Part shown: piece after piece, positions 16,620-31,355 of the stretch
How positions within the stretch are numbered: position 1 is the first letter of the stretch
Layout: every line of letters begins with the position of its first letter
Source: Microbacterium sp. SORGH_AS_0862
GTDB taxonomy: Bacteria > Actinomycetota > Actinomycetes > Actinomycetales > Microbacteriaceae
Length of the DNA stretch: 64,000 bases
NCBI RefSeq assembly: GCF_030818795.1
Contig: NZ_JAUTAY010000001.1
Location: 2,232,001 to 2,296,000 of the forward strand
Reading direction: 5' to 3'
The notes under the pieces: generated by a model
The model's input: the letters and a program-made list of their open reading frames with translations, nothing else
What the model was told of the DNA's origin: nothing
Databases searched by the model: none
Position numbers and translations under genes: made by a program

Positions 16620-18077
16620 TTGACCCCCCTAGATCCCCAGGCGGAGACCGCTCCCACGCGACGCTCCGGCCGGAACCGCGCTGCTGAGGCGGCTTCTTCG
16701 GGGACCTCGGATGCGGTCGCTCCGCTCACCCGCGCGCAGCTTCGCGCGCGCCAGGCGGCCGCGCACCCCGCGCCGGTCTGGTCGGCGCAGCGCGCGATGC
16801 CCGTCGCCGAGCCCGAGCTGGTGCTCGAGGTCGTGCCGGAGCCCATGGCCGCCGCCGATGTCACGCTGTCGGTACCCGCTGAGCCGGTCGCTGCGGCCGA
16901 GGTGACGCTGTCGGTATCGGAGTCAGAGGCGCCCGTCGCCGAGGCGCCGCTGCCCCGTCGCCGTGCGCGTTCGCTCGCCCAGACCTCCGTCGCTTCGGCG
17001 ACTCCCATCGACGTCGCCCTGGACGCCATCGACGATGAGCCGGTCGCTCTGCCCGTCGTCGACACCGTGTCGGTCGCTTCGGAGACGGAGGCGAGCCCGG
17101 CCGAGCTGCCCGTCGCGGATGTCGCGGCGGATCTCGACGACGAGGCGCGTGTGTTCGCCGAGGCGGTTCTCGCCGACGAGGCCGAAGCGCACGCGATCGC
17201 CGACGAGTTCGAGGCCGCCGCCCGGCTCTTCTCGTTCACGGGTGTGACCCCCATCCAGGTCGCCGCGGCCGCGATCGCCGACGAGCCCGTCGCGGCGCAG
17301 GATGCCGCCGAGGCCGCTCCGGCGAAGCGTCGCCGCTTCAGCGGTGCGGCGTTCAAGCGTGCGACGGCCGCATCCGCCACCGTCGGTGCCATGGGAATCG
17401 TCGGGCTGCTGGCGATCGGCATGACGACGCCCGCTGAGGCCGTCTCGGGCGCAGGCAACTCCGCCGCCGCATCCGTCTCGATCGCGACCGGCTCGAAAGC
17501 CGGCACCTCGAGCGCGCTGTCGAGCGACGAGATTCAGGCGTACGTGGCTCCGGCCGATGCGCAGGTCACCGCCCTGAACCGCAGCGACTACTCCACGGCG
17601 TCGACCGCGGAGCTCGCCGCCGAGTCGGGCATCACGCACTACTCGAACTTCTTCACCAACAACGCGAACAACCCGATCCAGTGGCCGTTCAAGGTGGGCG
17701 TCTCGATCAGCTACGGCTTCGGGATGCGCGACGGCACCATGCACGAGGGCTTGGACTTCACGCCGGGCGAGGGTGCCGAGATCCAGGCTGTGGCCGACGG
17801 CGTCGTGCGCACCGCGACGGAGAGCGGCGGAGGCTACGGCGTGATGATCATCATCGATCACGTGATCGACGGCAAGCTCGTCTCGACCCGCTACGGCCAC
17901 ATGCAGTATGGCTCGCTGCAGGTGAAGACGGGCGACACCGTGAAGGTGGGCCAGTTCATCGGCCGGGTAGGCGACACCGGCCACTCGTTCGGCGCGCACC
18001 TGCACTTCGAGGTGCTCGACAACGGCACGACGGCGATCGACCCGCTGCCGTGGCTGCGTCAGCACGCCGGCGGCTGA
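16620..18077 (+). CDS. M23-family peptidoglycan endopeptidase with long N-terminal region
   Basis: A 485-residue protein ending in a LytM-type M23 domain: the first zinc ligands lie in HEGLDF (His375 and Asp379), and the last in HLHFEV (His460 and His462). The first 240 residues are low-complexity Ala/Glu/Pro/Val with repeated AEVTLSV and PVA elements, so they are probably a disordered cytoplasmic region. One hydrophobic helix (about 250-272) anchors or exports it, leaving the peptidase outside. The start is TTG 16620, chosen because no better in-frame ATG or GTG lies before the conserved opening. An AT-richer stretch at about 16510-16545 is the likely promoter. Confidence 0.85.
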   Translation: MTPLDPQAETAPTRRSGRNRAAEAASSGTSDAVAPLTRAQLRARQAAAHPAPVWSAQRAMPVAEPELVLEVVPEPMAAADVTLSVPAEPVAAAEVTLSVSESEAPVAEAPLPRRRARSLAQTSVASATPIDVALDAIDDEPVALPVVDTVSVASETEASPAELPVADVAADLDDEARVFAEAVLADEAEAHAIADEFEAAARLFSFTGVTPIQVAAAAIADEPVAAQDAAEAAPAKRRRFSGAAFKRATAASATVGAMGIVGLLAIGMTTPAEAVSGAGNSAAASVSIATGSKAGTSSALSSDEIQAYVAPADAQVTALNRSDYSTASTAELAAESGITHYSNFFTNNANNPIQWPFKVGVSISYGFGMRDGTMHEGLDFTPGEGAEIQAVADGVVRTATESGGGYGVMIIIDHVIDGKLVSTRYGHMQYGSLQVKTGDTVKVGQFIGRVGDTGHSFGAHLHFEVLDNGTTAIDPLPWLRQHAGG

Positions 18078-18146
18078 CCGGCCGTGTTTCGTCGGGGCCC
18101 TCGGCTCTGATATTCTTTTCTGGTTGCCCGGATTGCTCCGGGAAGC

Positions 18147-18218
18147 GCCCCGATAGCTCAGTGGCAGAGCACTTCCATGGTAAGGAAGGGGTCGTCAGTT
18201 CAATCCTGACTCGGGGCT
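18147..18218 (+). tRNA. tRNA-Thr (GGT)
   Basis: Acceptor stem GCCCCGA/TCGGGGC, D arm GCTCAGTGGCAGAGC, anticodon stem CTTCC/GGAAG with loop ATGGTAA giving GGT, T arm GTCAGTTCAATCCTGAC. Length is 72 bases without CCA. Confidence 0.96.
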
Positions 18219-18252
18219 CGCAGCATCCGGTGGTCCGCCGCCGGAACGTCGC

Positions 18253-18326
18253 GGCAGGGTAGCTCAGTTGGTGAGAGCGCACGACTCATAATCGTGAGGT
18301 CGCGGGTTCAAGCCCCGCTCCTGCTA
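18253..18326 (+). tRNA. tRNA-Met (CAT), elongator type
   Basis: Acceptor GGCAGGG paired with TCCTGCT including two G-T wobbles, D arm GCTCAGTTGGTGAGAGC, anticodon stem ACGAC/ATCGT region with CAT, T arm GCGGGTTCAAGCCCCGC. It is 34 bases after tRNA-Thr and probably co-transcribed. A CAT tRNA could in principle be a lysidine-modified tRNA-Ile; the sequence resembles elongator Met. CCA is not encoded. Confidence 0.93.
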
Positions 18327-18328
18327 CA

Positions 18329-18360
18329 GACAAGGCCCCCGGTTCCGCCGGGGTTTTGTC
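18329..18360 (+). terminator. Terminator of the tRNA-Thr/tRNA-Met unit
   Basis: CCCCGG and CCGGGG arms around a TTCCG loop, followed by TTTTG, directly after the tRNA-Met gene. Confidence 0.75.
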
Positions 18361-18467
18361 GTGTCCGGGCACACTCAAGCGCTGGGCGGAATGAGGTTCT
18401 TGCCGGTTCTGTGCCGTTTGCGGAGTGATCAGAGCCCGACGTCGGGGGCCGCCACCAGACTCATCGT

Positions 18468-19349
18468 ATGACTGACGGCTACTACGGGGGACGCGCGATA
18501 CCGATTTCGGAGCCCCGTGAGCTCGCCGCGGTGCAGCACGTCCGGGCCAGATTGGCGCTGGTACCGCAGCTTGCTGAACGGTGGAATCGGATCGCGCGTG
18601 GGAAGGCGGGTCCGCGAAGCGAGTTGGCCTTCGACGATGACGTGACACATTGGACGCGTGTCAGCTCTCACGTCGCCCACAATCTGCACCATGCAATTGA
18701 CTGCCTGCGTGCGCTCGGTGTTCTGATCCCGCCGGCGGGGGAACTCACTGTTCCCTATGTCGCGCATTTCCCGGTGGCACGCTCAGGACTCGAGGCGGCT
18801 TCGACCGCCCTTTGGATCTTGCAGCCGGATGATCCCCGACAAAGGATCGAACGCCATCTGCGAAACCTCTGGTGGGAGGTCAGCGATGAGGCCTCGTTCA
18901 CGGGGGCATCGGAGCGCCTGGCTCCCGATGACTTGTCGCACCTCGTGGATCGGCAGCGCAAGGGTCAGAAGGCGTGGAAGCGGAAGTACGTGGATCAGAT
19001 TCGGGCAGTGGCGATGCGAGCAGGTGTGGCGGATCCCACGCTAGGCCGATATGCAGTCAGCTTCGCCGAGATTGTTCGCGAGGCCACCGCCGCGACAGGG
19101 TTGCCGGGTGGGTATGGGGAGATGGTTTGGCGGACGATTAGCGGCCTGAGTCATCCATCGATGCTCCGCTCTGTTCGCTTCATGCATCGAACGGAGTTCG
19201 CCGATCGCGAAGAAGGGATGGTCAATGTGGAGATCTCCAACGACACGCAGACTCTTCAATACACGGTGGATGCTCTCGTCCTCCAATTCACGACGGCGCT
19301 GGAGGTCCTCGCGTGGCGCAAGCTAAAGATCGGAATTCCGATCGTTTAG
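18468..19349 (+). CDS. Hypothetical protein of the accessory region
   Basis: A 293-residue soluble protein I do not recognise. It is helix-rich, with a Trp/His-containing segment (THWTRVSSHVAHNLHHAIDCLRALG) near residue 62 and a basic stretch (RQRKGQKAWKRKY) near residue 163. A late GGYGEMVWRTISGLSHPSM is also notable. It has no signal peptide or clear membrane segment. Codon use is visibly less GC-biased than in the flanks (many A/T third positions), and it directly follows a tRNA pair, so acquisition by transfer is likely. A CAGACT box six bases before ATG 18468 suggests a leaderless message. Confidence 0.6.
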   Translation: MTDGYYGGRAIPISEPRELAAVQHVRARLALVPQLAERWNRIARGKAGPRSELAFDDDVTHWTRVSSHVAHNLHHAIDCLRALGVLIPPAGELTVPYVAHFPVARSGLEAASTALWILQPDDPRQRIERHLRNLWWEVSDEASFTGASERLAPDDLSHLVDRQRKGQKAWKRKYVDQIRAVAMRAGVADPTLGRYAVSFAEIVREATAATGLPGGYGEMVWRTISGLSHPSMLRSVRFMHRTEFADREEGMVNVEISNDTQTLQYTVDALVLQFTTALEVLAWRKLKIGIPIV

Positions 19350-19603
19350 AAACTGTTGGGATGGCGCGATGAGGGCGTCGAGGCCGGTGCGGGGACTCGT
19401 CGCTCGGAGCGTCGGTGCGGCATAAGGCCGACTGGACATCGACGTTGACTGTTCAGCGGCGGTGGTGAACGACGTGCGTTCTGCGGGAGCGGCGTAGAGC
19501 GGGCCGCCCTTCGAGATCTGGCTCCGCCAGAGCGACCGATCGGACTCATCAGACCTGCGCTCGAGCCGTTACGTGAGCGAAACGTCAGCGTCACCCATCT
19601 GGC
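19350..19603. other. Intergenic stretch without a recognisable gene
   Basis: About 250 bases between the hypothetical gene and the amidase promoter. I see no supported coding frame, RNA or repeat in it. The bases just downstream (19604-19634) hold the repeat cluster described as a candidate operator. Confidence 0.5.
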
Positions 19604-19634
19604 ATGCGTCAATGCGTCAATAAGTCATGACACA
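19604..19634. promoter_or_regulatory. Candidate operator upstream of the amidase
   Basis: Two direct copies of TGCGTCA (19605-19611 and 19613-19619) are followed by the palindrome GTCATGAC (19624-19631) and CATGACA. The same elements, TGCGTC/GACGCA and CATGACA, occur in front of the nitrile hydratase genes at 24874-24912. A shared regulator, most simply the ArsR protein encoded between them, is inferred. Confidence 0.5.
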
Positions 19635-19691
19635 TTTGCTCGCTGGATTCGATCGACTCGGTGAGCGAGACGCGTGACGAGAGGACCGAGG

Positions 19692-21236
19692 ATGGCCGTG
19701 ACCCGCCCAACAAGGGATGACGTGAAGGCGTTCGCCCAGCGCTTCCGCTACGACTACGACGACACGGAGTTCGACGAGCTGCACGCCCTCGCTGTCGCTG
19801 GCCTGGCCGGCTACGACGTCGTCGATGAGCTCTATGTGAAGCACGTCGAGGTCGAGCCGCCCGTGCGGGAGTCGCAACGGCCCGTTGACGAGGAGAACTT
19901 GCTCGCTGCGTGGTACGTCCGGACCGAGATCGCTCCGCTCTCCACAGGAGTGCTCGACGGCCGCACGGTCGCCATCAAAGACAACATCGCCGTCGCCGGC
20001 GTCCCGATGATGAATGGCTCGCGCACCCTCGAGGGCTACGTCCCCCGGGAGGACGCCACGGTCGTCACGCGCACACTGGCGGCGGGCGCGACCATCCTCG
20101 GCAAGTCTGTGTGCGAAGACCTGTGCTTCTCGGGGTCGAGTTTCACCTCCGCGAGCGGGCCGGTGCGAAACCCCTGGAACCTCGGACGGACGACCGGTGG
20201 CTCCTCCAGCGGCAATGCCGCGTTGCTCGCATCCGGCGAGGTCGATCTCGCCATCGGCGGCGACCAGGGCGGTTCGGTGCGCCTCCCGGCATCCTTCACA
20301 GGTGTGGTCGGACACAAGCCGACCTTCGGCCTCGTCCCCTATACCGGCGCCTTCCCGATCGAGAGGACGATCGATCACCTCGGCCCGATGGCGCGCACTG
20401 TCGAGGATGCCGCGCTCCTGCTGTCGGTGCTCGCCGGCCCGGATGGGCTGGACTCGCGTCAGACGGAGGCCACCCGGGGCCCCGGCGACCTCTCGACAGT
20501 TGCCGACGGAGTCTCCGGGATGCGCATCGGTCTGGTCGCCGAGGGATTCGGCATCCCTGGGCTCTCCGACCCGGAGGTCGACGAGGTCGTGATCGCGGCG
20601 GCCGAGGCGCTCTCCTCCGACGGTGCCACGGTCACCCGTATCAACATCCCCGAACACCTGGACGCCGGGGCGCTGTGGGGCGTGATCGCGACCGATGGCG
20701 CGACATACCAGATGCTCGACGGCAACGGCTACGGACTGGGGGTCGAGGGCTATTACGACCCCCATCAGATGGAGTACTTCGCCCGGGGCAAGCTCGATCG
20801 GGGCCATGCGCTCTCCGAGTCGGTCAAGGTGACGGCACTCACGGGTGCGTGGGGACTGCAGGGGCTCGGCGGCTCCTCCTACGCCAAAGCGCGCCGTCTC
20901 GTCCCCTACGTTCGCGCAGCGTACGACGCGGCGCTGGCGCAGGTCGACGTCCTGGTCATGCCGACCACGCCCTTCACTGCGCTTCCTTTGTTGGAAGCGG
21001 GCGACGATCGTGCCGAGTACCTCCGCAAGGCGCTCAGCATGATCGGCAACACTGCCCCCTTCGACGTCACCGGGCACCCCGCCACGTCGGTACCGGCGGG
21101 CCTGGTGTCCGGTCTTCCCGTCGGCCTGATGGTGGTCGCGCCGCGATTCGACGACGCGCTCGCCCTGCGCGTAGCAGCGGCCGTTCAAGCGCGGATCGGT
21201 ACGCTCAAGCCGCCCAGGCCGGCCCGTCACGTCTGA
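19692..21236 (+). CDS. Amidase (amidase signature family) of the nitrile pathway
   Basis: This 514-residue enzyme hydrolyses amides to acids and ammonia, the second step after nitrile hydratase. The Ser-cisSer-Lys triad is visible: Lys96 in VAIKDN, the glycine-serine loop GGSSSGN (169-175) with the cis-serine, and Ser195 in GGDQGGSVR. The N-terminal alpha-helical segment (FAQRFRYDYDDTEFDELHAL, then YDVVDELY) is the form found in amidases linked to nitrile hydratase in Rhodococcus. ATG 19692 follows GAGGACCGAGG; a GTG at 19674 would add six residues. It is first in a co-oriented run that continues with cbtB after 44 bases. Confidence 0.9.
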   Translation: MAVTRPTRDDVKAFAQRFRYDYDDTEFDELHALAVAGLAGYDVVDELYVKHVEVEPPVRESQRPVDEENLLAAWYVRTEIAPLSTGVLDGRTVAIKDNIAVAGVPMMNGSRTLEGYVPREDATVVTRTLAAGATILGKSVCEDLCFSGSSFTSASGPVRNPWNLGRTTGGSSSGNAALLASGEVDLAIGGDQGGSVRLPASFTGVVGHKPTFGLVPYTGAFPIERTIDHLGPMARTVEDAALLLSVLAGPDGLDSRQTEATRGPGDLSTVADGVSGMRIGLVAEGFGIPGLSDPEVDEVVIAAAEALSSDGATVTRINIPEHLDAGALWGVIATDGATYQMLDGNGYGLGVEGYYDPHQMEYFARGKLDRGHALSESVKVTALTGAWGLQGLGGSSYAKARRLVPYVRAAYDAALAQVDVLVMPTTPFTALPLLEAGDDRAEYLRKALSMIGNTAPFDVTGHPATSVPAGLVSGLPVGLMVVAPRFDDALALRVAAAVQARIGTLKPPRPARHV

Positions 21237-21280
21237 CGACACCCACCACACCCCCCTCACCCATCCCTATAGGAGAAATC

Positions 21281-21496
21281 ATGAGCACTCACTCCGAGGT
21301 CATGGCGGTCCCGACGGTCTACGCCGCGAGCACCGCCGTGCGCGTCGCCTGGATCGCCGGCGCGGTCCTGGTCGCCGCCGCGGCCTACTACTTCGTCGGA
21401 ATCGACCAGGGTGTCGTGTCGGTCTTCGGATCCGACACGCACATCCACGAGATGATGCACGACGGCCGGCACCTGCTCGGCTTCCCGTGCCACTGA
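21281..21496 (+). CDS. cbtB: CbtB, small subunit of a cobalt transporter
   Basis: A 71-residue protein with one transmembrane helix (about residues 20-42) and a metal-binding tail containing HIHEMMH, GRH and a final PCH. This is the CbtB pattern. CbtAB is a predicted cobalt transporter otherwise found under cobalamin control. Here it lies between the amidase and the cobalt-type nitrile hydratase, so it probably supplies Co to that enzyme, the job done by NhlF in Rhodococcus rhodochrous J1. AGGAG lies seven bases before ATG 21281. It is followed by cbtA after 11 bases. Confidence 0.88.
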   Translation: MSTHSEVMAVPTVYAASTAVRVAWIAGAVLVAAAAYYFVGIDQGVVSVFGSDTHIHEMMHDGRHLLGFPCH

Positions 21497-21507
21497 GGAC
21501 GGACGTC

Positions 21508-22386
21508 ATGAGCGCGGAATCGCGGATCGTTCTCGCCGGCGCGGGTGCCGGTCTCGTCGCAGGCCTCCTCGGCGCGGTGGTGTCGCTGATCACCGTGGAG
21601 CCGTCGATCTCGGCCGCGATCGACTACGAGTCGATGCGGTCGGCGGCGGAGGCTGCGGTCGGCACCGGCACGGTGACCGGTGGTCACCATCATGGCGCGG
21701 TCGACCCGTCCGCGGGCGGGGGCGAGGAAGAGGTCGTGCCCCGTGCGGTGCAGGCGACGCTCGGTGTCTTCCTGTCTGTAGGGCTGTTCGGTCTCGCGAT
21801 GGGTCTTCTCATCGCCGCGGTCGCATACGGGCTGCGCAAGCTCCTCCCGCAGCTGTCTGCCCGCCGGGCGGCGCTGGTCGCGGGCACGCTCGCCTTCGTC
21901 GCCGGGTTTCTGGTGCCATACGCGAAGTATCCGAGCGACCCTCCAGCCATCGGCTCGCACGGAGACCTCGTCGCTCGCACCGCCGCGTACTACTCGATGG
22001 TCGCGATCTCGGTGTTCGCGATGACGATCGCGGTCGTCGTCGCCGCCCGGCTGTCCGCCCGATGGGGATGGTTCGCTGCCATCGTGGCCGTCGGCGGGGG
22101 ATACCTCGTCGTCATGCTCGCCGTCGCGGCGTTCCTGCCCTCCGTGGCACAGATCGTCGGAGCTGCGTCCGAGATCCCGGGGCCGGTCATGGACGGAGAC
22201 GACATCGTCCTCGACGGTTATCCGGCCGCGGTGATCGGTGGGTTCCGGCTGGGATCCCTGCTCGTGGCGACGACGATCTTCGGCGTGGCGACTGTGCTGC
22301 TGGCTGCCGTGATCGGATTCCGGGCGCGGGGACGGGGTGACGCCGTTCCGCAGGTGGGATCGAACGATCTCGTTCTGTCGCCATGA
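21508..22386 (+). CDS. cbtA: CbtA, membrane subunit of a cobalt transporter
   Basis: A 292-residue membrane protein of the CbtA family. It has a first helix at about residues 7-28, a His-rich loop (TGGHHHGA, about residues 60-67), and four further helices. Between helices is the conserved FLVPYAKYPSDPPAIG, a CbtA signature. With CbtB it should form the cobalt uptake system serving the nitrile hydratase. ATG 21508 is preceded by TGAGGACG. Its stop overlaps the start of the next gene (ATGA). Confidence 0.88.
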   Translation: MSAESRIVLAGAGAGLVAGLLGAVVSLITVEPSISAAIDYESMRSAAEAAVGTGTVTGGHHHGAVDPSAGGGEEEVVPRAVQATLGVFLSVGLFGLAMGLLIAAVAYGLRKLLPQLSARRAALVAGTLAFVAGFLVPYAKYPSDPPAIGSHGDLVARTAAYYSMVAISVFAMTIAVVVAARLSARWGWFAAIVAVGGGYLVVMLAVAAFLPSVAQIVGAASEIPGPVMDGDDIVLDGYPAAVIGGFRLGSLLVATTIFGVATVLLAAVIGFRARGRGDAVPQVGSNDLVLSP

Positions 22387-22952
22387 CGGACCGAGACCGG
22401 ATCGCCGCCCGAGCTGAGATCGTGTTCGTCGTACAAGCGACGACCGTGTCTCAGCTGCGGGCAGCCTTCCCCTCTGCCGACGACGAGCTCGCGTCAGCCG
22501 GCCTCCAGCAGTGTCGGAGGTCGTCTATGCGCTCCGGTCGACACGACGTGCTCTCCGCCCCCGAGCCGACATGTGTACAGACGGTCGCGGCGCTCGGATG
22601 GCCCCCGCCACGGGTCGTGTCCGATCTGCGAGGTGCCGAGCCCGGGGAGTGGCAGGGAAGAGAGCTCGCGTCGCTCTCACCGGACCAGTTCCAGCACTGG
22701 CGGGCAGGGGTAGCGCCTCCCGGTGGCGAGTCCGTGGCCGACCTGCTCCTGCGCGTTCGGAACTTCGTCCACGGAGTCGGGGGCGGACGGTACGTCGCCG
22801 TGGTGCCACAGGCTGTCGCGCGGGTGACTGTCCTGGTGGCTCTCGGGCTCCCCGCCTCGAAGATCTGGGAGATGGACGCCGATCCCCTTTCCACCGTGGC
22901 CGTCGCCCGTCGAGCCGGCGGCGAGACTCGGTTGCGGCTGGTGAACCTGTGA
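22383..22952 (+). CDS. Histidine-phosphatase-fold protein, catalytic histidines absent
   Basis: A 189-residue protein that follows the histidine phosphatase (phosphoglycerate mutase-like) pattern: SDLRGAEPGEWQGREL, PPGGESVADLLLRVRNFV and VTVLVALGLP align with the family. The catalytic RHG near the start is replaced by QAT (residues about 18-20, VVQATT), and the second histidine motif SHG by PQA (VVPQAVAR). It should therefore be inactive as a phosphatase. It is translationally coupled to cbtA, which suggests a structural or binding role in the cobalt/nitrile hydratase system. The fold call is fairly sure; the role is unknown. Confidence 0.75.
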   Translation: MTDRDRIAARAEIVFVVQATTVSQLRAAFPSADDELASAGLQQCRRSSMRSGRHDVLSAPEPTCVQTVAALGWPPPRVVSDLRGAEPGEWQGRELASLSPDQFQHWRAGVAPPGGESVADLLLRVRNFVHGVGGGRYVAVVPQAVARVTVLVALGLPASKIWEMDADPLSTVAVARRAGGETRLRLVNL

Positions 22953-23027
22953 TTCCGGGACGACATGCTCGTCTGCACGGGCGGTAGACTCCCGACATCG
23001 CGGCTGCACGAGGAGAAGAGGGTGGTC

Positions 23028-23381
23028 ATGGATGCCGACAGTGTGTTCGACTCCCTCTCCAGCTCGGTCCGCCGCGACATCCTGACTTTTCTCTCGACGC
23101 ACGGTGATGCCAGTGCCGGAGAGATCGCGGATGCCATCTCGGACGTCGGGCGTACGGCGGTATCCACCCACCTGCGTATTCTTCGTTCGTCGGGTCTGGT
23201 CAGTGAGCGACGCGCCGGACGTCAGCGGTTCTACTCTCTCGATCGCGAGGGTTCGGCCATGATCGCCGTCGGCTACTTCCAGTCGCTGATGCGCAACGCT
23301 CTCGAGGATGCCGAGAGCGGAAAGGCTGCGGTGACTCCCGTGTCCGCCTCGCCCGCATCTCGGGCTCGACGCGCCGGCTGA
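23028..23381 (+). CDS. ArsR-family transcriptional regulator of the nitrile hydratase locus
   Basis: A 117-residue winged-helix protein: SVFDSLSSSVRRDILTFLSTHG, then the recognition helix AVSTHLRILRSSGLV, and the wing ERRAGRQRFYSLD. No cysteine metal site is present, so it is not a metal-sensing ArsR. In Rhodococcus rhodochrous J1 the low-molecular-mass nitrile hydratase is controlled by the ArsR-like repressor NhlD and the amide sensor NhlC; this gene and the next occupy those roles. ATG 23028 follows GAGGAGAAGAGGG. The tail after residue 95 is low-complexity. Confidence 0.85.
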   Translation: MDADSVFDSLSSSVRRDILTFLSTHGDASAGEIADAISDVGRTAVSTHLRILRSSGLVSERRAGRQRFYSLDREGSAMIAVGYFQSLMRNALEDAESGKAAVTPVSASPASRARRAG

Positions 23382-23390
23382 TCCACGCGC

Positions 23391-24788
23391 GTGTCGGGCA
23401 TCGTCCTCACAGCGACGCGCGACGTGGCGTTGACGCCGGAGGCGGTTTTCGAGACGCTCGGCAGCTGGTTGTTCGGCGCGTCGTTCGAGCGGCTCGAGGT
23501 CGGCCGGCCCTTGACGCTGACGGTGCCGTTCGGGGGTGCCGCTTCAGGTTTCACCATTTTCGGGCGGATCAGGCGCATCGTCTGGGGGCAGTCGATCGTC
23601 ATCGAGCACTCGCAACCGTGGCGCGGCACGGTGCGCCTTCGTCTCACACCGCTCCCGATCGGCGCCCGCGTCACCCTCTCGTGCGATGTGGATGACGCGG
23701 GCGTGGGGTGGATGGTCCGGCGAACAGGAATCCCGTCATCCGCCCCCGAGAGCGCGCGGGGGAGGCGCTGGGGCCTTCTCACGACGAAGTCCGGGTCCGG
23801 CGCGGTCTTCGCCCTGGGGACGGAGAATGCCGCGCTGCTGGCGATCGACGAGCTCAACGCCGCGGGCGCGGGGATGGAGAACGACCTCGTCGTGGGTGAC
23901 GACGGGACCGACCCGGCCATGGCGGCGGTCGAGGCCGAGCGACTCATCGCCGCCGGATGCCGGGTCATCGTGGCCGCTGTCATCTCCGCGAGCTTCACGG
24001 CCGTGCAGCAGGTCGCCCAGCGCCACGGCGTACTGGCGGTGCATTCCGTGCTCAATGAAGGGGGGCGCCCGGCGCGCTCGGTGCTGCGACTCGGTGAGCG
24101 CCCGGCGGATCAGCTGCGCGCTGCCCTCACGCCGCTCATGCGAGAGACCGGCGGGTCGCGCTGCTACATCGTGGGGCATACGTACTCGTGGTCACGCTCG
24201 GCGGCCCGTGTCGCGAGAGGAATGCTGGCGGATCTGGGGGCCGGCGTGGCCGGTGAGGCCCGCCTCCCGCTGGGCCACCACGATTACGCTCCCGTCGTCG
24301 AGCGGATTCGGCGATCGGGCGCCGATCTGGTGCTCTCCACTCTCGTCGGCGACGACGAGGTGCGTTTCGAGCGGTCCAGCCACGAGCTCGGACTCCGATC
24401 GACGGCGACCACTTTGTCGCTCGTTCTCGACGAATCGACCCGGGAGCACATCGGCGCCGAACAGAGCGCCGGCGTATGGGCGGCGATGGGGTACTTCGAG
24501 GCGTCTCCCTCATCCGTGAACCAGGCGTTCGTCGCCCGGTATCGTGCCCGTTTCGGGGCATGGGCGCCGCCCTTGTCGAGCCTTTCGGAGTCTGTCTACA
24601 GCACCATCCTCCTTCTCGAGCGCGCCCTTGCCGACGATCCGGACGCGACCGCCGACGCGTGGGCACGGGCGGTACGCCAGGTGCGGTTGGAGACGCCGCG
24701 CGGTCTCCTCACCTTCGGCGACGGAGAGACCTATGCGTCGACGATCCGCGTGGCCATCGCAGGGCAGACCGGCTTCCACCTGCTCTGA
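23391..24788 (+). CDS. SRPBCC domain fused to an AmiC-like amide-binding sensor
   Basis: A 465-residue protein with two parts. Residues 1 to about 118 read as an SRPBCC/AHSA1-type domain: an opening strand, the helix PEAVFETLGSWLF, paired strands and RVTLSCDVDDAG. From about residue 125 to the end is a type I periplasmic-binding fold of the AmiC/NhlC kind: GLLTTKSGSGAVFALGTENAALLAIDELN, MAAVEAERLIAAGCRVIVAA, then YFEASPSSVNQAFVARYRARFG. There is no signal peptide, so it acts in the cytoplasm, like AmiC. It starts nine bases after the ArsR gene and probably relieves repression when an amide or nitrile is bound. NhlC-type sensors known to me lack the SRPBCC part. Confidence 0.78.
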   Translation: MSGIVLTATRDVALTPEAVFETLGSWLFGASFERLEVGRPLTLTVPFGGAASGFTIFGRIRRIVWGQSIVIEHSQPWRGTVRLRLTPLPIGARVTLSCDVDDAGVGWMVRRTGIPSSAPESARGRRWGLLTTKSGSGAVFALGTENAALLAIDELNAAGAGMENDLVVGDDGTDPAMAAVEAERLIAAGCRVIVAAVISASFTAVQQVAQRHGVLAVHSVLNEGGRPARSVLRLGERPADQLRAALTPLMRETGGSRCYIVGHTYSWSRSAARVARGMLADLGAGVAGEARLPLGHHDYAPVVERIRRSGADLVLSTLVGDDEVRFERSSHELGLRSTATTLSLVLDESTREHIGAEQSAGVWAAMGYFEASPSSVNQAFVARYRARFGAWAPPLSSLSESVYSTILLLERALADDPDATADAWARAVRQVRLETPRGLLTFGDGETYASTIRVAIAGQTGFHLL

Positions 24789-24841
24789 GCCACGGTTTGT
24801 GTCGCGCGTGTGAAGTTTTCCGCGCGGTGCGATGTCGACGC

Positions 24842-24912
24842 TTGACGATCCGGTTCTCTACGCGTTCTGTATATGACAACGTGTCAGTGCGTCGTGACGC
24901 AATGACATGACA
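24842..24912 (+). promoter_or_regulatory. Nitrile hydratase promoter/operator region
   Basis: A -10-like TGTATATG (24869-24875) is followed at once by two perfect inverted repeats: TGACA-ACG-TGTCA (24874-24886) and TGCGTC-GT-GACGCA (24888-24901), then CATGACA (24906-24912). They would cover the transcription start, fitting repression by the ArsR protein. A TTGACG at 24842 is too far away (22 bases) to be a standard -35. Related elements precede the amidase. Confidence 0.55.
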
Positions 24913-24955
24913 AGGGGGCAGTCCGTCCCCGTCTGACCGAGAAAGAGAGCGAGAT

Positions 24956-25663
24956 ATGAACGGAGTGTTCGACCTCGCCGGCACCGATGGAATCGGCCCC
25001 GTCGTCGTGCCGGAGAGCGAACCTGTCTTCCGCAGCGAGTGGGAGAAGGCCGTCTTCCCCATGTTCGCGATGTGCTTCCGCGCGGGCTTCTTCGGCGTCG
25101 ACGAGTTCCGTCACGGGATCGAGCTCATCGATCCTGTGGTCTACCTCACGTCGCCCTACTACGAGCACTGGGTCCACACCGTCGAGCATTACGGCGAGAA
25201 GCGTGGGGTGCTGGATCTCGATGAACTCGACCGTCGCACCGCGTACTACCTCGCCCATCCCGACGCGCCCCTGCCCGAACACGCTGACGACCCCGATCTG
25301 CTCGCGTTCGTCGATGCCGTCGTGAAAGCCGGAGCCACCGCGAAGCGGGAGTCCGACGTGCCCCCCGCGTTTCGGGTCGGTGACATCGTCCGTGTGGAGC
25401 GCGACGCGCCGCACGGGCACACGCGCCGAGCGCGATACGTCCGTGGCGCGGTCGGAGAGATCGTGATGGCGCATGGCGTCTTCATCTACCCCGACACTGC
25501 CGGCAACGGTCTGGGCGAGGCGCCGGAGCACGTCTACACGGTGAGATTCATCGCCGAAGAACTCTGGGGGTCCGGGGCCGATCAACCGCGGGACTCCGTC
25601 TACTTCGATGTCTGGGAGCCCTACATCGAACTCGTCGAGCGCAAGGAAGAGAACGCAGCATGA
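24956..25663 (+). CDS. nthB: Nitrile hydratase beta subunit
   Basis: A 235-residue beta subunit of nitrile hydratase, which hydrates nitriles to amides. The opening [16 protein letters not shown] is the family signature. The two arginines that contact the metal-site sulfenate and sulfinate groups are at the expected places, Arg52 (FRHG) and Arg157 ([11 protein letters not shown]). The C-terminal SH3-like barrel includes [17 protein letters not shown] and [13 protein letters not shown] 24956 follows GAAAGAGAGCGAG. The beta-alpha-activator order is that of cobalt nitrile hydratases. It overlaps the alpha start by four bases. Confidence 0.96.
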
Positions 25664-26268
25664 GTGCACACATCCGCAGCCAGGAAGAGATCGCCGCACG
25701 CGTGAAGGCCCTGGAGTCGATGCTGATCGACAAGGGCATCATGACGACACAGGCGATCGACCGCATGGTCGAGATCTATGAGAACGAGGTCGGACCGCAG
25801 CTGGGCGCTCGTGTCGTCGCCAAGGCGTGGGCGGACCCCGAGTTCAAGGCCCGCTTGCTCCACGATGCGTCGGAGGCGTGCGCGGAGCTGGGCATCAGCG
25901 GTCTGCAGGGCGAGGACATGGTCGTCGTCGAGGACACCCCGGAGGTCCACAACGTCATCGTCTGCACGCTGTGCTCCTGCTACCCCTGGCCCGTCCTCGG
26001 ATTGCCGCCGAACTGGTACAAGGACCCCCAGTACCGCGCGGCGATCACTCGCGAGCCTCGGAAGGTGCTCAGTGAAGCGTTCTCCTACGACCTGCCGACG
26101 GACGTCGAGGTGCGCGTCTGGGATTCCAGCAGCGAGATGCGCTACTGGGTGCTCCCGCAGCGGCCCGCCGGTACGGAGGGGTGGACCGAGGAACAGCTCT
26201 ACGAGCTGGTGACCCGTGACTCCATGATCGGTGTGGGAGCGACCAAGGCCCCCGAGGAGCTGTCGTGA
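25660..26268 (+). CDS. nthA: Nitrile hydratase alpha subunit, cobalt type
   Basis: A 202-residue alpha subunit carrying the metal centre. The ligand loop reads [10 protein letters not shown], with Cys102, Cys105, Ser106 and Cys107. Thr-Leu after the first cysteine and Tyr after the last are the cobalt form; iron enzymes have CSLCSCT. Downstream are [25 protein letters not shown] and [21 protein letters not shown], both family signatures. The protein is cytoplasmic. Start and stop overlap both neighbours by four bases, so the three genes are translated as one coupled unit with fixed stoichiometry. Confidence 0.97.
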
Positions 26269-26696
26269 CATCCGTTCTGCCATCGCCGTACGTCGATGAC
26301 GGCGACCTGGAGCGGGATCGCCGTCGGGTTGCGGAGCTCGTGTGCGATCTGCCCGGGGGTTCACCGGATCAGTTGTCCTTCGAGAGCCCGTGGGAGATCC
26401 GCGCCTTCGCCCTCGCCGTGACGGCTTACCACGCGAAGAAGTTCGACTGGGCGCAGTTCCAGAGCGCGCTGATCGCCTCCATCTCCGAATGGGAGGCGCG
26501 CGGCGGCGACCGGGAAAGCGACCCCTGGTCGTACTACGAGCACTGGCTCGTGGCGCTCGAAGACGTGATGGTGGAGGCGGGCGATGTCGATCCGTCCGCC
26601 CTCGATGCGCGCACCACAGAAGTGCTGGCCACCCCTGCCAACCGCAACCATCACGAGGCGCACCCGGAACCGATCGCCATCGATCCGGCTCGATGA
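26265..26696 (+). CDS. Nitrile hydratase activator / accessory protein
   Basis: This 143-residue protein resembles the N-terminal half of the beta subunit ([40 protein letters not shown]). That is the pattern of NhlE/NhhG/P14K activators, which carry cobalt into the alpha subunit, for instance by subunit swapping. The GTG at 26265 overlaps the alpha stop. The C-terminus is short and flexible. A 17-base hairpin follows three bases after the stop and closes the operon. Confidence 0.9.
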
Positions 26697-26698
26697 TG

Positions 26699-26736
26699 AT
26701 GCACGAGGGAGGGGCGAGTGCCCCTCCCTCGTGCAT
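26699..26736 (+). terminator. Terminator of the nitrile hydratase operon
   Basis: A perfect 17-base stem (26699-26715 with 26720-26736) and a GAGT loop, just after the activator gene. It lacks a T tract but its stability makes termination very likely; it could act in both directions. Confidence 0.85.
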
Positions 26737-26801
26737 CCCGGTTCACTCCGCGCACGGTCAGACGTAGCTCCGGATCGACAGGCGTGGGCCTCTCGGTCGT
26801 G

Positions 26802-26924
26802 TCAGCTGCGGTGCCGCTCGAAGAGCTCAGCCGTCTCCGCGGCAATGCGGTCGTGAACGCGCCGCCGGCGGATGTCTGCGCCACGGTAGTGCGGGAACGC
26901 CGCTGACACAATCATCTCGGCCAT
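26802..26924 (-). CDS. Small ORF, 40 residues, unrecognised
   Basis: From ATG 26924 (after AGAGGAT) a 40-codon frame ends at TGA. It encodes a charged, helix-prone peptide with VSAAFPHYRGADIRRRRV and a second helix ETAELFERHRS. The codon pattern and strong charge periodicity look coding. It could also be a remnant of a larger gene, since nothing around it is recognisable. It lies opposite to the nitrile hydratase operon, beyond its terminator. Confidence 0.4.
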   Translation of the reverse strand: MAEMIVSAAFPHYRGADIRRRRVHDRIAAETAELFERHRS

Positions 26925-27001
26925 GCCGCGATCCTCTCATCTGGCCGCGTCACAGCACGAGTGAGGGCATGCGGCCGCCGCGTCGTACGCGCGCGCCCTC
27001 G

Positions 27002-27599
27002 TCAGAGGGATGTTCTATCGGCGGAGGTTATCGCGGGTGACGCGTACTCCTCGACGACGACGCCCGAGCCGAAGGCGCGAGTGCGGATGAGATCGAACGG
27101 GCGCGGTGCGTAGGGTGCGTTGCCGATGAGAGGGATCGCGCGCCCGAGCGCGACGGGGTTGCGTTTCAGGATGAGACGGTCGATATCCGGCAGCAGGGTG
27201 CCCGCGAGCTCACCGCCGCCGCACAGCCAGATGCCCGAGCCGTCTTCCTCTTTCAGGCTGCGAACGGTGGCGAGAGGATCGGCGGTGAGCGAGATCGCCG
27301 GCGCGACTTCGCGCGCTCGGCGGCTGGCGACGATCTGGTACAGGTGCGGGTAGGGGCTGTCGATGCCGACCTCCAGCGCGGGCGCGAGGGTGTTCCACCC
27401 CCATGATCACGGTGTCGAACCTGGTTCGCGGCGGCTCGATGCCCATCGCCGCGTGCGCGTGCGCGGGCAGCGCGTCGGCGTACTCCTCGAAGACGGCCGA
27501 GGCGTGATCGCCCTCGACGAGGAAGGCGTCGAACCCGCCGCCCGGATCGGCGATGGAACCGTCGATGCTGACGGCGACCTAGCAGGAAAGCTCTCGCAT
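27002..27599 (-). pseudogene. Dihydrofolate-reductase-family (RibD_C-like) gene with two lesions
   Basis: Read from ATG 27599, the protein would be a dihydrofolate-reductase-like oxidoreductase: MRELSC, VAVSIDGSIADPGGGFDAFLVEGDH, RTRFDTVIMG, then WNTLAPALE, DGSGIWLCGGGELAGTLLPDIDRL and the closing EYASPAIT. Codon 7 is TAG (27581-27579), where homologues have a Tyr. An extra base in a C run at 27398-27402 also breaks the frame between VIMG and WNT. Both lesions together make a sequencing slip unlikely. The neighbouring TetR gene, divergent from it, was probably its regulator. Confidence 0.8.
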
Positions 27600-27669
27600 G
27601 CTCACTTCAATCACGACGGGTGTCCTGGTTGAACTACAGCAGGCGTTGTGGTTTGGCTAGCACGGGGTC

Positions 27670-28236
27670 ATGGTCCGAGATGACGAACGCCGATCTGCGC
27701 TCGCCGATGCGGGGATCCGCGTGCTCGCGGAGGAAGGGGCGAGGGGTCTCACCCACCGTGCGGTGGATGCCATCGCCGGCACTCCGCGGGGCACCGCGTC
27801 CAACTACTTCCCCACGCGCGGAGATCTCGTCTCCGCATTGACGAATCGCATCGAAGAGCGGCTGACCCCCGACCCGGACGTCATCGCGTCACGCGATTCC
27901 CGCTCGCCGGACGGGGCGCTGTTCGCGGAGTACCTGCAGGACGTGGTGCGGCGCCTGAGCGCCGACCCGCACGTCTCGCTTGCGCTCTTCGAGCTCCGAC
28001 TCGAAGCGGCGCGCAAGCCCGCTGTCGCCGCGGCGCTGGGAGCCTGGCGACAGCGCGCTCTCCTCGACGATGTGGCGTTCAACGAGGCCGCCGGCCTTCC
28101 CGGCGGGAGGACCGAGATCGCATTGCTCCACTTCGCGATCGACGGGCTCCTGCTCGACCATCTCACAGTGCCGCTCGACACCGGTCTCACGGTCGAGGCG
28201 GCCGTGGATGAGCTCGTCGATCGGATCCTTCCGTAG
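27670..28236 (+). CDS. TetR-family transcriptional regulator
   Basis: A 188-residue regulator with an N-terminal HTH: ALADAGIRVLAEEGARGLTHRAVDAIAG, then the recognition helix TPRGTASNYFPTRGDLVSAL. The C-terminal ligand domain is all-helical and contains LALFELRLEAARKP. Divergent TetR/dihydrofolate-reductase-family pairs are common in actinobacteria; here the partner gene is broken. A TAGCAC box six bases before the ATG suggests a leaderless message. Confidence 0.85.
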   Translation: MVRDDERRSALADAGIRVLAEEGARGLTHRAVDAIAGTPRGTASNYFPTRGDLVSALTNRIEERLTPDPDVIASRDSRSPDGALFAEYLQDVVRRLSADPHVSLALFELRLEAARKPAVAAALGAWRQRALLDDVAFNEAAGLPGGRTEIALLHFAIDGLLLDHLTVPLDTGLTVEAAVDELVDRILP

Positions 28237-28262
28237 GAGTAGATCCGGGCGGGGATAGCCCC

Positions 28263-29204
28263 CTACCGCAACACTTCCACACCGAAGCCCGACACCACCG
28301 CCCGCACCTCGTCGAGGTAGCGCTGCGCCTGTTCGGTGAGCCCGAGGGCGGCCTGACCGATCCAGCCGATCTCGATCCTCACGTCGACCTCGAGGGGGAC
28401 GGCGACGATCTCGGGATCGAGGTCGTCGCTGATGATGCCCGTGGAGATCGTGTAGCCGCCGAGACCGATCATGAGGTTGAAGATCGTCGCGCGGTCGGAC
28501 ACCCGGATCTCCTGCTTCGCGGAGAGGGTCGAGAGGATCTCCTCAGCGAGGTAGAACGAGTTGTTCGCACCCTGATCGAAGGTGAGTCGCGGCAGATCGG
28601 CGAGGTCGTCGAGTGTCGCACGACCCCGTGCGGCGAGCGGGTTCTTCCGCGAGATGAAGATGTGCGGCTCGGCGAAGAACAGCGGATGGAAGGCCAGCCC
28701 CGCATCGCGGAGCAGCTTGTTGATCACGTTCCGGTTGACGTCGTCGCGGTACAGGATGCCGATCTCGCTGCGGAGCGTGCGGACGTCCTCGATGATGTCC
28801 CACGTGCGCGTCTCGCGCAGCGAGAACTCGTACTCCGCCGCGCCGAAGCTCCTCACCATCCGCACGAACGCGTCCACGGCGAACGAGTAGTGTTGCGTGG
28901 ACACGCCGAGCAGGCGCCGGGCCGGGGGCCGGCCGAGATAACGCTGCTCGAGGAGCGCGACCTGCTCGACGACCTGCCGGGCGTAGCCGAGGAACTCGGT
29001 GCCGTCCGCGGTGAGCGTCACGCCCCGTGCCGACCGGATGAGGAGGGCTCGCCCGACGCGGGCCTCGAGGTCTTTCATCGCCGCCGACATCGTCGGCTGC
29101 GAGACGTAGAGCAGATCGGCCGCGGCGGAGATCGATCCCTCCGCCGCGACCTCCACGAAGTAGTGGAGCTGTTGCAGCGAAATGCCTGCGGAGGTCTTTG
29201 CCAT
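28263..29204 (-). CDS. LysR-family transcriptional regulator (likely of mesXD)
   Basis: A 313-residue LysR protein. The HTH lies at about residues 9-66 (LQQLHYFVEVAAEGSISAAADLLYVSQPTMSAAMKDLE), followed by the linker helix and a periplasmic-binding-like effector domain. It is divergent from mesX, 121 bases away. The gap contains CTAT-N8-ATAG (29214-29229), a candidate LysR site. By position it is likely to control the methionine synthase pair, in the manner of MetR, but the effector is unknown. Confidence 0.85.
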   Translation of the reverse strand: MAKTSAGISLQQLHYFVEVAAEGSISAAADLLYVSQPTMSAAMKDLEARVGRALLIRSARGVTLTADGTEFLGYARQVVEQVALLEQRYLGRPPARRLLGVSTQHYSFAVDAFVRMVRSFGAAEYEFSLRETRTWDIIEDVRTLRSEIGILYRDDVNRNVINKLLRDAGLAFHPLFFAEPHIFISRKNPLAARGRATLDDLADLPRLTFDQGANNSFYLAEEILSTLSAKQEIRVSDRATIFNLMIGLGGYTISTGIISDDLDPEIVAVPLEVDVRIEIGWIGQAALGLTEQAQRYLDEVRAVVSGFGVEVLR

Positions 29205-29213
29205 AGTCGAAGG

Positions 29214-29229
29214 CTATAGCAGCGCATAG
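29214..29229. promoter_or_regulatory. Candidate LysR binding site
   Basis: CTAT (29214-29217) and ATAG (29226-29229) form an inverted repeat with an eight-base spacer, between the divergent LysR and mesX genes. Confidence 0.4.
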
Positions 29230-29325
29230 TCACGCCGAATTACCCGATGGGTGCGGATCCTCGGCACGATGACACGACAACCCCTGCGCGACCCACCGGC
29301 CGCGTGAGATCCCGATTGGCTGCGC

Positions 29326-30318
29326 ATGACGAACGAACTCGCGTTCCGCATCTCCACGACCCCGTTCGACGAGGACTACTCGCCTTCCGCCGAGTCCCGT
29401 GCCACGACGAACTTCGCCAACCTCGCCCGCGGGGAGGATCGGCAGCAGAACCTCCGCAACGTTCTCACGATGATCGATCGCCGGTGCAACGACCTCGCCC
29501 GGTGGGACAACCCTGACGGCGACCGGTACGCCGTCGATCTCGAGATCGTCTCGGTGGATGCGGGGCTGACCGCCGACGGCGAAGAGCGCCACTTCCCCCT
29601 GCTCGAGGTGCTCGACCTCCACATCCGCGACCTGCACACCGGCGTCCGCCATCACGGGATCGTGGGCAACAACTTCTCGTCCTACGTGCGCGACTTCGAC
29701 TTCAGCGTGCGCCTTCCCGCCGTCACCGCTGATGCCGGCGCCTTCACGGTCCCCGATGACTTCGGCGCCCTGCACGGTGCGCTGTTCCAGGCGTTCCTGG
29801 ACTCGGACGCCTACCGTGCGCGCTTCGAGGCGCCGCCGGTGATCTGCATCAGCGTCTCGACGACCAAGACGTACCGTCGCACCGACAACACGCATCCGGT
29901 GCTCGGTGTCGAGTACCTCCAGAGCGAGTACTCGCTGACCGACGAGTATTTCGCCCGCATGGGGCTTCGGGTGCGCTACTTCATGCCCGCGGGTGCCGCG
30001 GCGCCGCTGGCGTTCTACTTCCGGGGCGACCTGGCCAACGACTATACGAACCTGCAGCTCATCGGCACGATCAGCACGATGGAGAGCTTCCAGAAGATCT
30101 ACCGCCCGGAGATCTACAACGCGAACGCGGCCGCGGGCCGCGTCTACCGCCCGAGCCTGGAGCACGGCGACTTCTCGCGCACGCAGGTCGACTACGACCG
30201 CGTCGAGCGCGCGCAGCTGGCGATCACGCAGGGAACCTACGCGGCAGAGCACTTCCTGACGCCCTACGGTGATGTGCTCGCACGATGGGCTGGTCTCGAG
30301 CCGGCACTCGCCCGATGA
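29326..30318 (+). CDS. mesX: MesX (DUF1852), partner of the methionine synthase MesD
   Basis: A 330-residue DUF1852 protein. The family opening FRISTTPFDEDYSPS and the segments NNFSSYVRDFDFSVR and YFRGDLANDYTNLQLIGTISTMESFQKIYRPEIYNAN are conserved landmarks. By published genetic work DUF1852 (MesX) is required with oxygen for MesD, and it was proposed to make the methyl donor. It is cytoplasmic with no membrane segment. Its stop overlaps mesD (ATGA), implying co-translation. Confidence 0.87.
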   Translation: MTNELAFRISTTPFDEDYSPSAESRATTNFANLARGEDRQQNLRNVLTMIDRRCNDLARWDNPDGDRYAVDLEIVSVDAGLTADGEERHFPLLEVLDLHIRDLHTGVRHHGIVGNNFSSYVRDFDFSVRLPAVTADAGAFTVPDDFGALHGALFQAFLDSDAYRARFEAPPVICISVSTTKTYRRTDNTHPVLGVEYLQSEYSLTDEYFARMGLRVRYFMPAGAAAPLAFYFRGDLANDYTNLQLIGTISTMESFQKIYRPEIYNANAAAGRVYRPSLEHGDFSRTQVDYDRVERAQLAITQGTYAAEHFLTPYGDVLARWAGLEPALAR

Positions 30319-31355
30319 ATCTCGCAGAGACGCCCGCGCTGCTGCCGACCGCGATCGTCGGGAGCCTCCCGAAGCCCTCGTGGCTCGCGAAGCCGGAAGT
30401 CCTCTGGTCTCCGTGGGAGCTGGCGGGTGGGGCCCTCGTCGAGGGCAAGCAGGACGCGTTGCGCATCGCCGTGCAGGAGCAGCAGCGTCGTGGCATCGAC
30501 ATCGTCAGCGACGGCGAGCAGACCCGCCAGCACTTCGTGACGACCTTCATCGAGCACCTGGCGGGCGTCGATTTCGAGCGCCGCGAGACGGTGCGCATCC
30601 GCGACCGCTACGACGCGAGTGTGCCCACCGTCGTGGGCACCGTGAGTCGGCCCGAGCCGGTCTTCGTCGACGACGCGCGGTTCCTCCGCCAGCAGACGGA
30701 CCGCCCCCTGAAGTGGGCGCTTCCCGGCCCCATGACGATGATCGACACGCTCGCCGACCGCCACTACAGAAGTCGCGAGAAGCTGGCGTGGGAGTTCGCG
30801 GTCATCCTCAACGAGGAGGCCAAGGAGCTCGAGGCGGCCGGTATCGACGTCATCCAGTTCGACGAGCCCGCCTTCAACGTCTTCTTCGACGAGATGCGCG
30901 ACTGGGGAGTGGCCACGCTGGAGCGCGCGGCCGAGGGGCTGCGGGCGGAGACCGTCGTGCACATCTGCTACGGCTACGGCATCGAGGCGAACACCCGGTG
31001 GAAGCAGACGCTGGGGTCCGAATGGCGCCAGTACGAGGAGTCCTTCCCGCTTCTGCAGCGGTCGGCGATCGACATCGTGTCGCTCGAGAGCCACGGCTCC
31101 CGCGTACCCATGGAGCTCATCGGACTCCTGCGCGGCAAGAAGGTCATGCTCGGCGCCATCGACGTCGCCACCGACGAGATCGAGACGCCCGAGGAGGTCG
31201 CCGACACCCTCCGTGAGGCGCTCCACTACGTCGACGCCGACAAGCTGATGCCCAGCACCAACTGCGGCATGGCGCCGCTGTCGCGGGAGGTGGCCCTCGC
31301 GAAGCTCAGCGCGCTGAGCGCCGGCGCCGCGATCGTGCGCGAGGAGCGGGCCTGA
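30315..31355 (+). CDS. mesD: Folate-independent methionine synthase MesD (MetE C-terminal type)
   Basis: A 346-residue protein with only the catalytic barrel of cobalamin-independent methionine synthase and no MetE N-terminal folate domain. The zinc/homocysteine site is intact: His216 and Cys218 (HICYG), Glu258 (SLESHG) and Cys317 (TNCGM). Also seen are GSLPKPSWL at the start and DIVSDGEQTR. Coupling to mesX identifies the MesD subtype rather than MesA-C. With metY at 54436 it gives a route from O-acetylhomoserine through homocysteine to methionine without folate or B12. Confidence 0.87.
   Translation: MNLAETPALLPTAIVGSLPKPSWLAKPEVLWSPWELAGGALVEGKQDALRIAVQEQQRRGIDIVSDGEQTRQHFVTTFIEHLAGVDFERRETVRIRDRYDASVPTVVGTVSRPEPVFVDDARFLRQQTDRPLKWALPGPMTMIDTLADRHYRSREKLAWEFAVILNEEAKELEAAGIDVIQFDEPAFNVFFDEMRDWGVATLERAAEGLRAETVVHICYGYGIEANTRWKQTLGSEWRQYEESFPLLQRSAIDIVSLESHGSRVPMELIGLLRGKKVMLGAIDVATDEIETPEEVADTLREALHYVDADKLMPSTNCGMAPLSREVALAKLSALSAGAAIVREERA

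Follow-up and report, generated by a model that had tools for sequence, protein, structure and literature searches.

Downstream of an arsR gene and upstream of the nitrile hydratase genes of Microbacterium sp. SORGH_AS_0862 lies a gene whose product appeared, in a sequence-only reading, to join an SRPBCC domain to an AmiC-like amide-binding fold in a single chain. The locus raises the question of whether such a protein is real and, if so, what it does beside ArsR and the genes for nitrile degradation. The features found in the window, the whole stretch of 64,000 nucleotides that was analyzed, are given in Table 1.

Table 1. Features of the nitrile-degradation cluster, with positions counted from the first nucleotide of the window
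Feature	Position	Strand	Basis and remarks
Candidate operator GTCAATGCGTCAATAAGTCATGAC	19608..19631	+	Begins 66 bp before amidase start; identical in L164
Amidase	19674..21236	+	Pfam; NF005565 above cut-off
CbtB, probable cobalt transporter subunit	21281..21496	+	
CbtA, probable cobalt transporter subunit	21487..22386	+	Pfam
Histidine-phosphatase-like protein, probably without usual catalytic residues	22383..22952	+	Pfam; motif inspection
ArsR-family winged-helix protein	22965..23381	+	HTH_20, HTH_5 (Pfam); NF033788 above cut-off
Fusion of SRPBCC-like domain (residues 1-118) and AmiC/UrtA-like binding fold (121-465); probable amide-sensing co-regulator	23391..24788	+	ORF, Pfam, structure models, fold searches
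SRPBCC/AHSA1-like domain	23391..23744	+	Alignment of 53 sequences, Pfam on relatives, model, fold searches
AmiC/UrtA-like binding domain	23751..24785	+	Pfam, structure alignment, alignment of 53 sequences
Candidate operator GTCAGTGCGTCGTGACGCAATGAC	24883..24906	+	Begins 73 bp before nthB start; L163 and L164 carry similar dyads there
Nitrile hydratase beta subunit (nthB)	24956..25663	+	Pfam, NCBIfam
Nitrile hydratase alpha subunit (nthA), CTLCSC motif (Co-type)	25660..26268	+	Pfam, NCBIfam
Nitrile hydratase accessory protein	26265..26696	+	NCBIfam

The fusion gene was open throughout from a GTG start and encoded a single chain of 465 amino acids, and the frame read on the reverse complement of the same segment was interrupted by stops. 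Antisense ORFs of up to 260 amino acids (23273-24055) were also listed over the gene; antisense ORFs of such size are common in GC-rich DNA. The whole chain was modeled with a pTM of 0.92. Modeled in isolation, residues 1-118 adopted a small SRPBCC/AHSA1-like helix-grip fold (pLDDT 87), and residues 121-465 took a type I periplasmic-binding fold nearest to AmiC/UrtA, so that both halves of the proposed fusion were upheld. The gene thus encodes a genuine two-domain protein. An assembly error as the origin of the fusion was ruled out because the same layout recurs in many independent records.

The first domain is overlooked by standard annotation. Residues 1-120 of the window protein gave no Pfam match at E ≤ 1, hence none above a curated cut-off, and the SRPBCC assignment therefore rests on relatives and structure. 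In the alignment of 53 sequences (the window protein and 52 listed homologues), Pfam at E ≤ 1 recognized AHSA1 in 10 members and Polyketide_cyc2 in 7. Both families were matched inside the first 112 residues by five of six relatives scanned singly, among which the curated cut-off was passed by three for AHSA1 and by none for Polyketide_cyc2; P0094, a Rhodococcus sp. JVH1 protein scanned singly, matched neither. With a profile of 15 N-domain sequences, structure 3q6a was found at E 0.0013; an Aha1 protein was matched no better than unrelated chains (E 0.61). The families named among the 50 titles listed for each fold search were Aha1, PR-10, START/StARkin, CoxG, polyketide cyclase and similar ones, with the exception of 3oh8, a longer chain (456 residues) titled epimerase; the remaining uncharacterized proteins among the listed matches we take to be SRPBCC proteins. 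Residues P76, W77, G79, and W107 were invariant in all 53 aligned sequences, W26 was found in 49 and H73 in 45 of them. In the model, the second helix of the fold is replaced by a loop and the last helix is short, at about 11 residues (102-112), whereas the helix closing the SRPBCC cavity is normally long. With these features, no large closed pocket is evident.

The second domain matched Peripla_BP_6 over residues 128-443 (E 3.3e-60). It aligned with AmiC (1pea, E 2.1e-15) and better with UrtA-type proteins (8tg1, E 1.3e-32), which are its closest solved relatives. Residues S199, F202, N222, E223, Y265, and W267 were invariant in 53/53 sequences. Two of them, S199 and Y265, correspond to AmiC Ser85 and Tyr150, which together with Thr106 we take to be amide contacts; Thr106 is not retained, its position being occupied by V220 in the fusion. 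As judged from the alignment, this comparison favors an amide as the ligand. The AmiC residues Tyr83, Tyr104, Thr106, and Tyr152 are replaced by V197, H218, V220, and W267, and these differing wall positions suggest a different, perhaps larger, amide. No signal peptide was apparent, and in the model a folded domain fills the N-terminus where one would sit.

The fusion had seemed without a described counterpart and possibly peculiar to this genome, which did not hold: the same two-domain layout was present in the 52 aligned homologues, taken from among the matches listed, and in P0094. About 80 of the best 120 of 123 homologues, the window protein included, covered at least 95% of the query. 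Within Microbacterium, 46 of 366 genomes matched at E ≤ 1e-40 and six of these matches reached into the N-domain, and in a phylum-wide draw 30/396 genomes matched and two reached it. The N-domain profile at E ≤ 1e-8 found 20 of 401 genomes of a family that probably includes Rhodococcus, 1/35 and 1/36 genomes in further sets, and none of 300 genomes in another family. Among 72,556 plasmid records, nine had a place covering at least 80% of the query. The fusion is therefore patchy but broadly spread in Actinomycetota, plasmids included, and represents a widespread type of regulator that is real, conserved, and biologically sensible, not a one-off.

Stand-alone copies of the N-domain were sought as well. 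At E ≤ 0.001, a class-wide search matched 10 of 394 genomes, two of them with fused copies; the other eight, whose frames had 150-239 amino acids, matched weakly (E 1.4e-5 to 9e-4), and no ArsR was found within about 1.5 kb of flank at these eight loci. All matches at E ≤ 1e-8 in the class-wide search and in the sets of 401, 35, and 36 genomes lay in frames of at least 464 amino acids except one of 336 (L175/L195, the same place). The fusion frame there is short, with 305 residues counted from the beginning of the N-domain; neither nitrile hydratase nor amidase was matched in the stretch, and the copy may be broken.

The gene order in the window is amidase, cbtB, cbtA, histidine-phosphatase-like gene, arsR, fusion, nthB, nthA, and accessory gene; the order in L162 differs, with the enzyme genes first and the fusion last. 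The nitrile hydratase setting that the sequence-only reading had pointed out was confirmed in the window and beyond it, since among the fetched stretches of 20 further loci nitrile hydratase genes were present in 18 and amidase in 19. Seven of these loci carried the VCSLCSC motif and the others tested VCTLCSC, presumably Fe-type and Co-type enzymes, respectively. Other neighbors of the ArsR-fusion pair were an amidase by itself in L001, an amidase and nearby branched-chain/urea-type ABC transporter genes in L003 and L165, iron-type ABC genes in L141, and an AMP-binding enzyme in L159. The setting thus agrees with a regulator that is linked to amide-related genes at most, though not all, loci.

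Several other elements of the cluster were recorded. The usual histidine-phosphatase catalytic motif is RHG; the histidine-phosphatase-like protein has VQAT at this place in the window, L163, and L164, and VHAM in L162, and is by its motif probably a pseudo-enzyme retained with the cobalt transporter genes. A cobalamin riboswitch, sought in 17000-31000, was not detected, and only two tRNAs were found there at gathering scores. These two tRNA genes (18147-18326) lie upstream of the cluster and mark a possible insertion site for nitrile-degradation genes. Just 3' of the nitrile hydratase operon is a strong inverted repeat (26698-26737, 14-bp arms), in which the consensus scan called no terminator.

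The ArsR protein of the window scored 64.2 bits with NF033788 (metalloregulator ArsR/SmtB family; cut-off 55). Its ORF opens at the position given in Table 1, and the relative L112 suggests that the true start is the ATG at 23028 (MDADSVFDSL). No Cys was present in the matched core, i.e., there are no Cys metal ligands there. Cys was lacking in 9 of 35 partner ArsR proteins, with one in 24 and two in 2, and by this count the 26/35 partners with at least one may still sense metals.

The pairing of the fusion with ArsR held in every fusion locus examined for it. An ArsR gene lay directly upstream on the same strand in all 15 fusion loci including the window, and an ArsR profile built from these 15 was positive in all 20 further loci, which were not used in building it, at 19-84 bp before the N-domain start; three of the 20 duplicate or nearly duplicate other loci (L190 repeats L142, L193 shares 93% of 31-mers with L002, and L194 98% with L193). 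Among 80 genome-contig loci of relatives, ArsR was found in 6/6 with the N-domain and in 0/74 without it. This contrast is supportive, not decisive, because the profile derived in part from the six, and transporter proteins, where no ArsR is expected, are probably encoded at many of the 74 loci. Four single-domain plasmid relatives were also examined. Three of them (L143, L167, and L168), located by nitrile hydratase/amidase genes, adjoin MarR genes; the fourth (L166), named "nitrile hydratase regulator", is flanked by a hydrolase gene on one side and ABC transporter genes on the other and has no ArsR or MarR gene next to it. A separate ArsR gene was seen further off in the L143 and L168 clusters, and L144 contains two nitrile hydratase sets, one of which adjoins an ArsR-fusion pair.

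Two DNA dyads of 24 bp, newly seen in this analysis, precede the amidase and nthB genes of the window. Both fit the pattern GTCA-N16-TGAC, and the nthB-upstream one reads TGTCAGTGCGTC-GT-GACGCAATGACA. With at most one mismatch, a pattern built from the two sites matched only these two in the 3.5-Mb genome, and since it was derived from them, only the absence of further matches is informative; a reversed control matched once. In 35 fusion loci, GTCA-N16-TGAC occurred 28 times, compared to 7.5 in shuffles, and 17 of the 28 matches, in 14 loci, began 60-106 bp ahead of amidase or nthB, with gene starts extrapolated from tblastn. The dyad-bearing loci comprised both Co- and Fe-type clusters; five of the 14 (L202, L204, L206, L207, and L209), Fe-type relatives of one another, share the same 24 bases. 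The form GTCAA-N14-TTGAC was found in 6 of 24 unique amidase-upstream regions, with a shuffle maximum of 2. The strict form GTCARTN12AYTGAC was matched 9 times in 549 kb from 38 fusion loci and never in 939 kb from 78 control loci; the loose GTCA-N16-TGAC was matched 28 and 12 times, respectively. The fusion set includes near-duplicates, and at least one strict match (L141) is not near a candidate gene.

The remaining 21 of the 35 loci had no site of such spacing before amidase or nthB, several of them having no such gene in the stretch. When plain palindromes were counted in 31 upstream regions, with one further region too short to use, an excess over chance was confined to the nthB-upstream regions of the window, L164, and L163, where the observed value was reached by 0, 3, and 5 of 100 shuffles, respectively; the amidase-upstream site of the window was not above chance in this count, being reached by 70/100. 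No enriched dyad was detected upstream of nthB across 21 regions. The 64-kb window holds 13 dyads as strong as the nthB site, that site included. A scan of 19300-27000 revealed no consensus sigma-70 promoter, and there was no dyad before arsR in the window. A different dyad, TATGT-N12-ACATA, was present upstream of arsR in 6 of 31 unique regions of up to 300 bp (e.g., L003; shuffle maximum 3) and may be a second operator type.

Taken together, the fusion is most likely a cytosolic amide sensor that works with the neighboring ArsR-type DNA-binding protein in controlling the nitrile-degrading genes. In the explanation that we favor with somewhat better than even confidence, ArsR would bind both dyads, ahead of amidase and nthB, and repress the two operons. 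The amide, product of nitrile hydratase and substrate of amidase, would fill the AmiC-like cleft of the fusion, and the loaded protein would change shape and relieve the repression, with the SRPBCC domain as the part that links sensor and ArsR, docking being the likeliest mechanism. Passages of a report on Rhodococcus rhodochrous ATCC BAA-870, whose plasmid cluster (L158) carries the same ArsR-fusion pair, describe its nitrile hydratase as constitutively expressed (PMC6941271), so that the pair would not ensure inducible control in that strain. This statement and the common single Cys in the ArsR partners weaken the explanation slightly.

Four other explanations were weighed. The SRPBCC domain could bind a hydrophobic ligand of its own, for example a nitrile, with the AmiC part binding the amide, as the sequence-only reading had proposed. 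Binding of hydrophobic ligands is frequent among SRPBCC domains, the model has the superfamily fold, and W26, H73, W77, and W107 could line a site; we consider a dual sensor unlikely given the short modeled domain with its missing second helix and short last helix, and given that the N-domain is also present in L001, L003, and L005 with no nitrile hydratase in the fetched stretch. In view of such loci, the presence of the N-domain tracks with ArsR and not with nitrile hydratase. Its linkage with ArsR suggests coupling to that protein more than a second sensor. It is distinctly unlikely that the SRPBCC domain serves the sensor only as a structural cap and plays no part in signaling to ArsR. The high pTM of the whole chain suggests the fixed inter-domain contact that a cap would make, but a cap leaves unexplained both the lack of upstream ArsR in the 74 relatives without the domain and the MarR genes beside three single-domain relatives.

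Given its AmiC-like binding domain, the fusion might also act in antitermination, partnering an antiterminator in the way that AmiC partners AmiR, with an incidental ArsR neighbor. This is very improbable, as Pfam finds no ANTAR domain in the fusion and nine neighboring proteins, ArsR is upstream in every fusion locus examined for it, and recurring dyads in DNA precede the enzyme genes. That the protein is a solute-binding component of a urea/amide ABC transporter mistaken for a regulator is scarcely credible, despite its UrtA-type solved relatives and the many homologues named substrate-binding proteins by their sources, since the fusion scored 135 bits with the UrtA model (NCBIfam TIGR03407; cut-off 492.75), the place of a signal peptide is taken by a folded domain, no ABC permease was found among the ten window proteins scanned, and L003 and L165 have a separate binding protein with their transporter genes.

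Nitrile hydratase of the Rhodococcus type is used industrially, and such regulators are needed for its induction. Examples are NhlC and NhlD in strain J1, reported to act as positive and negative regulator, respectively, and Nhr1 and Nhr2 in Fe-type clusters. These systems likewise combine an AmiC-like sensor with a small ArsR-like protein by amidase and nitrile hydratase genes. The window fusion matches the Nhr1/NhlC type in its gene setting, with an ArsR-like partner beside amidase and nitrile hydratase genes, and it is homologous to a protein already named as such a regulator, P0094, which is called nitrile hydratase regulator1 and has the same two-domain layout; since a member already bears this name, the fusion is not new as a protein. 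The layout occurs in the seven CSLCSC loci and in CTLCSC loci. Open-licence literature searches turned up nothing on the SRPBCC part, the ArsR tie, or the shared operator-like dyads. They gave no match for nitrile hydratase with SRPBCC or for "nitrile hydratase regulator", and the matches listed for "nhlC" were all unrelated by title. These three elements make up a testable circuit across Co- and Fe-type clusters.

AmiC-AmiR of Pseudomonas aeruginosa is described, in passages of PMC3795266, as a ligand-responsive complex of sensor and partner protein that dissociates on induction. In comparison, the window fusion has an additional N-terminal SRPBCC-like domain, and its partner is ArsR in place of the ANTAR protein AmiR. 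The single-domain NhhC-like regulators of Rhodococcus sp. M8 (L143), R. aetherivorans (L168), and Mycolicibacterium arabiense (L167) resemble the fusion in being AmiC-like and located by nitrile hydratase/amidase genes. Unlike the fusion, they have 344-361 amino acids and a MarR-type neighbor, and SRPBCC is absent by length, in L143 also by Pfam.

ArsR genes directly upstream of stand-alone SRPBCC (AHSA1) genes repeat the arrangement seen with the fusion. One such pair, ArsR with a tandem-AHSA1 protein, is encoded in the same genome (L155, 970-2418) and served as comparator; its SRPBCC protein differs from the fusion in having a strong AHSA1 match (E 1.2e-36) and no binding-protein domain. With the two partners present separately in this genome, the earlier description of the fusion as merging both in one chain is a fair one. 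In the loci examined, ArsR is upstream where the domain is present, and where it is absent, the neighbor is MarR in three nitrile hydratase/amidase loci or AmiR in Pseudomonas. From this we tentatively read, at somewhat less than even confidence, the SRPBCC domain as a coupling module that lets an AmiC-type sensor act on ArsR, with the stand-alone ArsR-SRPBCC pairs perhaps using the same contact. If so, the fusion would help to account for the frequent occurrence of SRPBCC genes downstream of ArsR genes, and the SRPBCC protein of such pairs may act on ArsR directly, as the N-terminal domain of the fusion is proposed to do.
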